NCBI GenBank assembly: GCA_029975165.1 | Contig: JARKPR010000093.1 | Span: 1-62,162 of the forward strand | Reading direction: 5' to 3' | DNA: 62,162 nucleotides | Source of the DNA: Selenomonadales bacterium | GTDB lineage: Bacteria > Bacillota > Negativicutes > Sporomusales > UBA7701 | Part shown: one piece after another, positions 4,567 to 57,333 of the stretch | Numbering within the stretch: position 1 is the first letter of the stretch | Layout of the letters: the number at the start of each line of letters is the position of its first letter | The notes under the pieces: model-generated | The model's input: the letters and a program-made list of their open reading frames with translations, nothing else | Told to the model about the DNA's origin: nothing | The model's database searches: none | Translations under genes and position numbers: made by a program

Positions 4567-5136
4567 CTACTCTGCGTCCGTATGCTTATGCAGCGTCAGC
4601 GCCGGCCGGGCCGCCTCGAACCTCTCCAACTGCCGGAAAAAGAGCAGCGTCAGCACCACCACGGCGCCGATAACCGGCCAATGGTTCACCCCCAGCGCCT
4701 GGGGCAGCGTTATCCGGCCGAAATCGCCCCACGTCAGCACCGTAACCTTCAGCACGGGATAAGCCTCGGCATACAGGCCCGCCCCCACCAGCATCCCGAG
4801 GACGGCCCACACCGCATCCAGCCGGCCTTCGCCCACAGCCGCCACCGCCGTTCCCGGGCAATAACCCGCCAACCCCCAGCCGAAGCCGAAGATCAGCCCG
4901 CCGATCACCACGCCGCCCAGCACCGTCGGCTTTACCGCCAACTTCACCAGCCCCAGGTCGTACAGCAGGTACACCCCGACCATCGCCACCACCACATGGG
5001 ACAACATGAACTTCACGATCGTGAAATCGGCCAGGCGCAACGCGCCAAGCTGCTTGTCGTAGCGGAGCACCCGCCCCTTCTGCAGGCAAAAACCGAACAA
5101 AATCCCGGTAACGAACCCGTAAATAAGCTCCGTCAT
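4567..5136 (-). CDS. YeeE/YedE-family membrane subunit (second half, Cys form)
   Basis: This hydrophobic 189-residue protein has about five membrane segments and the family motif G-L-A-G-Y-C-P-G-T-A-V near residues 88-98. YeeE/YedE proteins transport thiosulfate or other sulfur (or selenium) compounds through conserved Cys residues. Here the usual fused two-repeat protein is split in two subunits; this is the second half. The ATG at 5136 overlaps the upstream gene's stop by the pattern ATGA and has a GGAGG site about 8 bp upstream. The substrate is not determinable from the sequence. Confidence 0.85.
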   Translation of the reverse strand: MTELIYGFVTGILFGFCLQKGRVLRYDKQLGALRLADFTIVKFMLSHVVVAMVGVYLLYDLGLVKLAVKPTVLGGVVIGGLIFGFGWGLAGYCPGTAVAAVGEGRLDAVWAVLGMLVGAGLYAEAYPVLKVTVLTWGDFGRITLPQALGVNHWPVIGAVVVLTLLFFRQLERFEAARPALTLHKHTDAE

Positions 5137-5651
5137 CCGCCGCCGCCTCCCCTGTAAACAATGCGGGCCATGATCAGGCCGCCGATGAAAAAGCAAACCA
5201 GAGCGACATAACCGCTGACCGCCAGCTGAAGCGAACCGCTCAGCCCATGCCCGCTCGGTCAGCCGTCGGCCAGGCGAGCGCCGAACATCGCCACCACGCC
5301 GCCGCAGAAAGCCGCCACGCCCCGGCGCCACCCGGAAGGACCGAACCGTTGCCGCCACATCTCCGGCACCGTCCGCCACCTGAACTCGCCCGCCGTGTAC
5401 GCGGCGACGAACGCCCCCGCGAAAATGCCGGCCATGAGCAGCCACTGCCAATCGAACCCCGGGACCTCGCGCAGGAAATACTCCATCCGCGCCACCCGCT
5501 CGGCGCCTGCCAGCTGCTCGAGCATGCCGGCCGTGCGCACGAAAGTCGTCGACGCGCCGAGATACTTGCCGGCCGCCCACACCGACGCAATCGAAACAAG
5601 GCCGCTCAGCGCCCCTGCCAGATACGGATTCCAGCCCTTGCCCTCCGTCAT
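5133..5651 (-). CDS. YeeE/YedE-family membrane subunit, probable selenoprotein (in-frame TGA = Sec131)
   Basis: From the ATG at 5651 (strong AAAGGAGG site upstream) the frame encodes 130 residues of a YeeE/YedE half-protein and reaches TGA at 5261-5259. Reading on, it continues in frame with P-S-G-H-G-L-S-G-S-L-Q-L-A-V, the conserved family block, then a final hydrophobic helix. It stops at 5133, overlapping the ATG of the partner gene. In relatives the TGA position is Cys in G-G-C-x-S-G-H-G. A hairpin fitting a bacterial SECIS follows the TGA. The full product is 172 residues. A nonsense mutation or sequencing error is the alternative, but the perfect downstream frame and overlap argue against it. 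Confidence 0.8.
5225..5244 (-). promoter_or_regulatory. Candidate bacterial SECIS hairpin downstream of the in-frame TGA
   Basis: On the minus strand, GCTGA-GCG pairs with CGC-(T)-TCAGC around a GTT loop, giving an 8-bp stem with one bulged U. The loop begins 22 nt after the TGA and its first base is G. Bacterial SECIS elements place a small apical loop with an early G about 16-37 nt after UGA, so position and shape fit. SelB binding is inferred. Confidence 0.65.
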
Positions 5652-10200: not shown

Positions 10201-10325
10201 GGAGACTGCCGCAAAAGTCCATCTGCGGCGTTGCTCCTCGGCTGCCATCCTCAGCGTACTAACGTGTACGCTTCCGGTGTCAGCCTCCGGTGCGCCTTGC
10301 ATCTGGAGCTTTTTCGACAGTCTCC
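10201..10325 (+). repeat. Family A fold-back repeat, copy A1 (inside the PTS operon)
   Basis: The ends GGAGACTG and CAGTCTCC are exact inverted repeats. The inner arms AAAAGTCCA and TGGAGCTTTT also pair, with the conserved words CATCTG at both sides and an apical GTAC hairpin. It separates the EIIB and EIIC genes and fills their whole intergenic space. Confidence 0.85.
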
Positions 10326-22520: not shown

Positions 22521-22642
22521 CGGGTGCGTAAAAAGCTCCAGATGCAAGGCGTACCGGAGGCTGACACCGGAAGCGTACACGGGACGTACGCTGAGGATGG
22601 CAGCCGAGGAACAACGCCGCAGATGGACTTTTTACACAGCCG
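22521..22642 (-). repeat. Family A fold-back repeat, copy A2 (inverted orientation)
   Basis: The reverse complement closely matches copy A1, including the words for CATCTGCGGCGTTG, CCTCGGCTGCCATCCTCAGC and CCGGTGTCAGCCTCCGGT. Outer arms TGCGTAAAAAG and CTTTTTACACA pair. It lies between the NlpC/P60 gene and the class-A-like hydrolase gene. Confidence 0.85.
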
Positions 22643-57200: not shown

Positions 57201-57333
57201 TTGGCGGCCGTTGATTACCGCCCATCTGCTGCGTTGGCCCTCCGGGCGCTTGCTAGCGTACGTTCCGAGTACGCGTCGCTGCGCGTCCTCGGTCCGCCTT
57301 GCATCTGGACGGTACTGAACGGCCGCTCGCCAT
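57201..57333 (+). repeat. Family A fold-back repeat, copy A7 (between sbp and ftsA)
   Basis: TTGGCGGCCGTT pairs with AACGGCCGCTCGCCA at the ends (bulged CT); the apex is identical to A5 and A6. The rest of the 57199-57493 gap is AT-rich without a gene. Confidence 0.88.

Follow-up and report, generated by a model that had tools for sequence, protein, structure and literature searches.

The gene pair and its relation to known transporters

The window analysed here, a stretch of 62,162 nucleotides from a draft genome of a Selenomonadales bacterium, carries on its minus strand two adjacent genes for half-length subunits of a YeeE/YedE transporter, the first of which contains an in-frame TGA predicted to encode selenocysteine (Sec). 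The features of the locus are:

5133-5651, minus strand: gene for the predicted Sec-containing C-terminal-half YeeE/YedE subunit (PmpA-like), 172 residues plus stop; PF04143 match, frame read with TGA as U
5259-5261, minus strand: in-frame TGA, codon and residue 131, predicted to be read as Sec (alignment to Cys293 of YeeE/TsuA; Sec/Cys exchange)
5225-5244, minus strand: predicted SECIS hairpin with an 8-bp stem, an unpaired U at 5229 and a GUU loop at 5236-5234 (covariation; mostly absent in Cys forms; synonymous constraint)
4567-5136, minus strand: gene for the N-terminal-half YeeE/YedE partner (PmpB-like), 189 residues plus stop; PF04143 match
4858-4860, minus strand: codon of partner Cys93, equivalent of TsuA Cys91 (alignment offset to TsuA)
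5133-5136, minus strand: ATGA overlap of the Sec-gene stop (5135-5133) and the partner ATG (5136-5134), read from the sequence

The frame of the first gene starts with the ATG at 5651, meets TGA at 5261-5259, continues through PSGHGLSGSLQ and stops with TGA at 5135-5133; the position of the in-frame TGA, the continuation of the frame beyond it and the overlap with the partner ATG are all as the first-pass annotation had described them. Under the standard code, the open reading frame would comprise 130 residues. Among the matches listed, the stop lies within an ATGA in 83 of 96 Sec rows versus 16 of 23 Cys rows. ARAGORN found no tRNA in the whole window.

Both subunits exceed the Pfam gathering cut-off of 27 bits for PF04143 (Sulf_transp, YeeE/YedE). 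The Sec subunit matches profile positions 175-309, the C-terminal half, with 77.1 bits, and the partner matches positions 17-159, the N-terminal half, with 72.9 bits. In alignments with Spirochaeta thermophila YeeE/TsuA (6leo/8k1r), the in-frame TGA falls on Cys293, and the partner covers residues 5-122 with its Cys93 at Cys91. An AlphaFold model of the Sec subunit alone, based on 45 sequences, was poor (pLDDT 65, pTM 0.40). The partner site is occupied by Cys in 118 of 118 distinct readable places among the matches listed; 146 stretches were searched, of which 128 belong to the family and 124 have a partner, at 122 distinct places (L019/L235 and L035/L115 each stand for a single place, and L063, L112, L138 and L155 gave no partner match). 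Because the partner site is Cys in all 118 places, Sec occurs in this sample at only one of the relay positions.

In YeeE, thiosulfate is described as meeting cysteines 293, 91 and 22 in succession (PMC11073785), and Cys91 and Cys293 of the S. thermophila protein are reported to be indispensable (PMC11582611, PMC11073785). The corresponding sites in the window pair hold Sec at 293, Cys at 91 and Leu at 22, and Cys occurs at the Cys22 site in none of 124 rows among the matches listed. Scores against the TsuA models were 48.1 bits (Sec subunit) and 48.9 bits (partner) for NF052577, below the cut-off of 400, and 33.7 and 41.9 bits for NF041049, below that of 645; half-length proteins could hardly reach these cut-offs, because the models are full-length. 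TsuA/YeeE (S. thermophila 6leo and 8k1r; Escherichia coli) is of the same family by sequence, and its Cys91 and Cys293 sites align with those of the pair. However, it is one chain, bears three cysteines and has YeeD as its partner, whereas the window pair has two chains, a predicted Sec, and Leu at the Cys22 site.

PmpA and PmpB have been matched to the C- and N-terminal halves of YeeE, respectively (PMC11582611). The window pair shares with the PmpAB/YedE1E2 type the two adjacent half-transporter genes, the C-half bearing the Cys293 site and the N-half the Cys91 site, with one conserved relay residue each and no third cysteine. It differs in the predicted Sec, which replaces one Cys at the Cys293 site, and in subunit lengths of 172 and 189 residues versus about 130 (PMC11582611). 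Judged by these comparisons, the pair is closer to the two-subunit PmpAB/YedE1E2 type than to TsuA, a member of the thiosulfate permease branch to which the first-pass annotation had pointed: the Cys91 and Cys293 sites align, but the Cys22 site is Cys in none of the 124 rows and the TsuA cut-offs are not reached.

Sec/Cys exchange and the downstream hairpin

A family match was found in 34 of 380 genomes of the class that were searched. In the 33 class rows that were read, a single alignment column, corresponding to the Sec site, holds 6 TGA versus 27 Cys codons (15 TGC, 12 TGT), so that the homologue alignment called for by the first-pass annotation does reveal Sec/Cys exchange. The TGA rows are the window gene, three genes of the same genus (L020-L022), one of the same order (L023) and one of the same class (L035); in L028, the TGA is the terminal stop only. 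A second copy with Cys is present in three of the five searched genomes of the genus, namely G001 (L043), G002 (L041) and G003 (L042). At the level of the phylum, 64 of 398 genomes gave a match, nearly all of them distant. Two distant phylum members (G716:C1:2384262-2384693 and G562:C1:358338-358802) have one TGA inside the match, which could be Sec, a stop or the mark of a broken gene.

Scanning named public genomes for the TGA motif yielded at least 116 stretches, at least 98 of which belong to the family by sequence; the 18 outside the family were dropped from the counts. Two of these loci coincide with L023 and L035, having equal 48-mers, which gives at least 102 distinct TGA loci (98 from the scan plus 6 from the class minus 2 repeats). 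By record title, the scan loci fall into Thermodesulfobacteriota (at least 52), Myxococcota (at least 17), Nitrospirota (at least 7), Pseudomonadota (at least 4), Synergistota and Bacillota (at least 3 each), and Actinomycetota and Methylomirabilota (at least 1 each), with at least 10 unplaced; the Myxococcota count is probably an effect of naming, because the records are titled 'Deltaproteobacteria bacterium'. Among the matches listed, all but L068, L162 and L165 are titled as metagenome assemblies. The named strain Malonomonas rubra DSM 5091 carries two Sec copies of the subunit (L068, L165). Since the scan sought TGA forms only, it under-represents Cys relatives from outside the class and gives no Sec fraction. 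On a tree built from 96 Sec and 23 Cys rows (119 in total), the minimum number of Sec/Cys changes is five, two of which are forced by well supported branches; the tree omits L087, L115 and L125, the short rows L070, L094, L113 and L124, and L157 and L058 (a Cys form), which the motif missed.

The hairpin starts 14 nt downstream of the UGA, and its loop begins at the 23rd base after it. The 8-bp stem with a GUU loop at SECIS distance that the first-pass annotation had noticed can form as described. Its single-sequence folding energy is unremarkable, as 36, 37, 66 and 74 of 200 shuffles of four stretches folded as well or better, and because the energies are ordinary, single-sequence folding was rejected as proof of a SECIS. 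Rfam gave no match in window positions 5100-5400 at E values up to 10.

Comparison across TGA sequences sets the hairpin apart from chance. Among the matches listed, 95 distinct Sec sequences (identical 48-mers collapsed; L112 excluded as too short; L087 kept despite an aberrant-looking hairpin) share a stem of positions 18-24 with 30-37, numbered from the first base of the TGA, in which 91.9% of the cells are paired versus 84.7% in shuffles. Sequence-by-pair cells changed on both sides number 46 versus a shuffle mean of 10.7, a value as high being reached in 0 of 500 shuffles, and controls with the register slid gave 0 to 24. Two cruder measures do not rise above shuffles: the number of pairs with any both-side change is 2 (495 of 500 shuffles as high), and that of further pair types is 7 (417 of 500). 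The outermost pair occurs as GC, AU, CG, UA and GU, and the next as CG, UA and UG; a subgroup of proteins with GLSGLAQ fits a bulge-less register. The pattern used in the scan stops short of the stem, and the scan therefore did not select for it. In either of the two registers, all seven tested pairs can form in 84 of 94 distinct TGA sequences among the matches listed versus 2 of 24 Cys sequences, these two being L019, from sister species G003, and L056. A Methylomirabilota member (L087, 6196-6243) combines the TGA motif and the sequence TSGHGLSGG with a hairpin that is aberrant by eye.

Constraint on the RNA is also visible in the codons. Where the residue is the same, codon identity among the six Negativicutes Sec genes is 85% for codons +1 to +12 versus 56% upstream and 62% after; in 12 Cys genes, taken from the 23 Cys rows, the values are 39%, 44% and 45%. 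Further downstream, at codons +13 to +36, comparison of this genome with four sister species gave a dN of 0.058-0.079 and a dS of 0.53-0.78, a ratio of about 0.07 to 0.15. Purifying selection acts on the part of the gene that follows the TGA.

Since the hairpin shows paired changes and is mostly missing from Cys forms, the codons are constrained and dN/dS is low, Sec insertion is the only reading that fits well. Three marks of a bacterial selenoprotein gene are found here: a UGA in frame where homologues have Cys, an adjacent downstream hairpin conserved as RNA, and a tRNA-Sec in the genome. That the gene is a bacterial selenoprotein gene with Sec at residue 131 is a well supported prediction, and the proposal of Sec in place of the conserved Cys, made in the first-pass annotation, is strongly supported by the exchange of Sec and Cys in a single column, the covariation of the SECIS, purifying selection past the TGA and the presence of tRNA-Sec in all six TGA genomes. 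In sister species G003 (87% complete), the Sec site reads TGC and the hairpin sequence is intact (L019, G003:C58, 1882-1929), which looks like a recent Sec-to-Cys replacement with a relic hairpin.

The first-pass annotation had known of no described Sec form, but one is already tabulated in two reviews. A 2022 review (PMC9312934) has a table line for a Sec-containing YeeE/YedE protein (PF04143, WP_012471001.1), and a 2026 review (PMC13188914) has a table entry for a Sec YeeE/YedE protein (PF04143, GUxSG, WP_012471001.1) plus one sentence. That protein and the window gene have in common PF04143 and the motif, which is GUPSG in the window gene. These entries give no SECIS, partner, position or distribution. 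The term 'YeeE' is absent from the main texts of references 61 and 62 of the 2026 table, and the available passages of PMC12170894, PMC5322559 and PMC11097638 include no Sec-containing family member. Neither the covariation of the SECIS nor the alignment with Cys293, the invariably Cys-bearing partner or the relic hairpin of G003 was seen in these passages. With the class itself already in print, the gain lies in the position, the SECIS, the distribution and the natural Sec-to-Cys replacement.

A predicted Sec-Cys relay for reduced sulfur

The two-subunit YedE1E2 is reported to speed the import of zero-valent sulfur, an effect lost when either conserved Cys is changed (PMC10812762). By analogy with such relatives, the pair most likely imports a reduced sulfur species, either sulfane sulfur/polysulfide or thiosulfate. 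We put at roughly 0.8 the probability of the overall reading, in which the gene encodes the selenoprotein C-half subunit of a two-subunit YeeE/YedE transporter that most likely imports reduced sulfur by a Sec-Cys relay. UGA codon 131 would be read as Sec, directed by the hairpin 14 nt downstream. Sec would occupy the position of TsuA Cys293, the first relay cysteine, so that a selenolate would meet the sulfur first. Following the relatives, the sulfur would then be handed to the partner's cysteine, the equivalent of TsuA Cys91, and from there to a cytoplasmic acceptor.

If this reading is true, anaerobes have a sulfur importer that requires selenium, and standard-code annotation of this and the other TGA genomes would be expected to cut the subunit off after residue 130. 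A Sec residue at the point of entry into a membrane transporter would also offer a direct handle on the question of covalent sulfur chemistry.

An unlikely alternative assigns the selenoprotein to the YedE branch, as a transporter of selenium rather than an importer of sulfur. It could draw on weak matches to the selenium-linked YedE models (30.4-32 bits): selen_YedE_FdhT scored 30.5 bits with the Sec subunit and 32 bits with the partner (cut-off 350), and seleno_YedE (TIGR04112) scored 30.4 bits with the partner (cut-off 200) and had no listed match to the Sec subunit, half-length being a handicap here. TIGR04112 YedE is also reported to co-occur with SelD and to be split into two neighbouring genes in archaea (PMC5322559), an arrangement that the window pair shares with these distant superfamily members (TIGR04112/NF033796). 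However, the scores lie far under the cut-offs of 350 and 200, and those against the TsuA models are slightly higher (48 to 49 bits). The link to selenium differs in kind as well, being proposed transport in those proteins and a Sec residue here. Moreover, 16 of 22 genomes with non-TGA copies have no tRNA-Sec, and deletion of yedE in Methanococcus maripaludis is described as not marking YedE as a dedicated selenium transporter (PMC11097638).

Returning to sulfur import, a wider version of the relay may be considered, although we hold it to be doubtful. In it, a two-chain covalent relay would be widespread among anaerobes, with Sec capturing sulfane sulfur as a selenenyl sulfide and passing it to the invariant cysteine of the partner, and Cys copies would serve as a backup in some species. 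Selenium would also gate translation of the partner, because termination at the UGA would halt ribosomes before the overlapping partner start. Sulfur import would then be selenium-dependent.

Gene neighbourhoods were clustered for 102 loci. The partner forms the main cluster, in at least 69 loci, the choice of open reading frames having lost it elsewhere. A flavoprotein resembling CoA-disulfide reductase forms the next true cluster, in 9 loci, after a 10-locus opposite-strand cluster at the partner's place was set aside. Of the 146 stretches, 13 carry the flavoprotein (TIGR03385, 412 bits, below the cut-off of 578.8), which counts in favour of the transport reading. In six TGA loci, its gene is on the same strand and starts 544-913 bases after the Sec gene, and in L108 it is on the other strand; it is not adjacent to the window pair. 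The neighbourhood was rejected as a guide to the substrate, as the largest true cluster beyond the partner comprises only 9 of 102 loci. In the sister-species loci L233, L235 and L237, a radical SAM gene follows the pair (partial PqqE-type matches, below cut-offs), which is not so in the window, and L237 has an NHLP-type RiPP precursor gene near the pair.

Selenocysteine machinery in this genome and its relatives

All six genomes that have the TGA form carry a tRNA-Sec gene, versus 6 of 22 others; for selA the counts are 5 of 6 versus 6 of 22. selB exceeded the cut-off in seven of the nine genomes in which it was sought (five of the six TGA genomes plus G005 and G013), and selD in five of seven, each match with a TGA inside; selD was found in five of the six TGA genomes. 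The first-pass annotation had called for a search for selA, selB, selC and selD in this genome, and its outcome was divided. Two tRNA-Sec genes with a TCA anticodon were found (G000:C3; 75.5 and 71.9 bits versus a cut-off of 47). They lie on one contig (L001, 1501-1597; L002, 1501-1596) and differ in 11 of 97 aligned columns. Within the same 18-kb stretch of that contig as the second of them (L002) lies a further gene with a UGA, which belongs to the glycine/betaine/sarcosine/D-proline reductase selenoprotein B family (TIGR01918) with 458.8 bits versus a cut-off of 65.45. In contrast, the draft, which consists of 100 contigs, gave no match above the cut-offs for selA, selB or selD; weak selD matches scored 90.5 bits in this genome and 87.4 bits in G003 (cut-off 125).

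In the relative G002, selA, selB and selD lie on one contig. Compared with this genome, a 17-kb piece surrounding selAB in G002 gave short matches only (best 40 of 598 candidates scored), whereas a different stretch of G002 matched the window over 4,489 bases at 87%. A 407-residue gene of the block, which we take to be hydF, shows 91-95% identity in G001 and G004; the best counterpart in this genome reaches 28%. Because unrelated genes are absent together with selAB, we favour an assembly gap as the cause of the absence of the block from the draft, with true loss as the alternative. Sister species G003 is likewise without the block. No break point was seen when contig 52 of G002 was compared with the starts of all 99 contigs of this genome besides that of the window and with 57 of its contig ends; the comparison yielded short repeats and L386, which matches three places on contig 52 at 69-72% and was read as a paralogue.

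True loss would leave a Sec gene in a lineage without selA, selB and selD, in which the UGA has become a stop and the gene a relic of recent origin. This is quite unlikely. It would account for the lack of any selA, selB or selD match over the cut-offs in the draft and for the state of G003, which also has none of the three over cut-off, no tRNA-Sec match, and TGC at the site with the hairpin kept. However, two tRNA-Sec genes with a TCA anticodon, a second UGA gene, an unbroken frame with purifying selection past the TGA, and the unrelated neighbours missing along with selAB speak against it. A truncated subunit, with the TGA as a normal stop, an error of sequencing or a mutation in a pseudogene, is extremely improbable: the standard code does give a 130-residue frame and single-sequence folding is ordinary, but TGA recurs in at least 102 distinct loci with a covarying hairpin, and the frame continues.

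A dispersed repeat of about 100 bases occurs in the window at 10214-10312, 22529-22634 and 57204-57324. It is also present in G002 and close to ends of contigs of this genome, and the matches listed show 75-97% identity.
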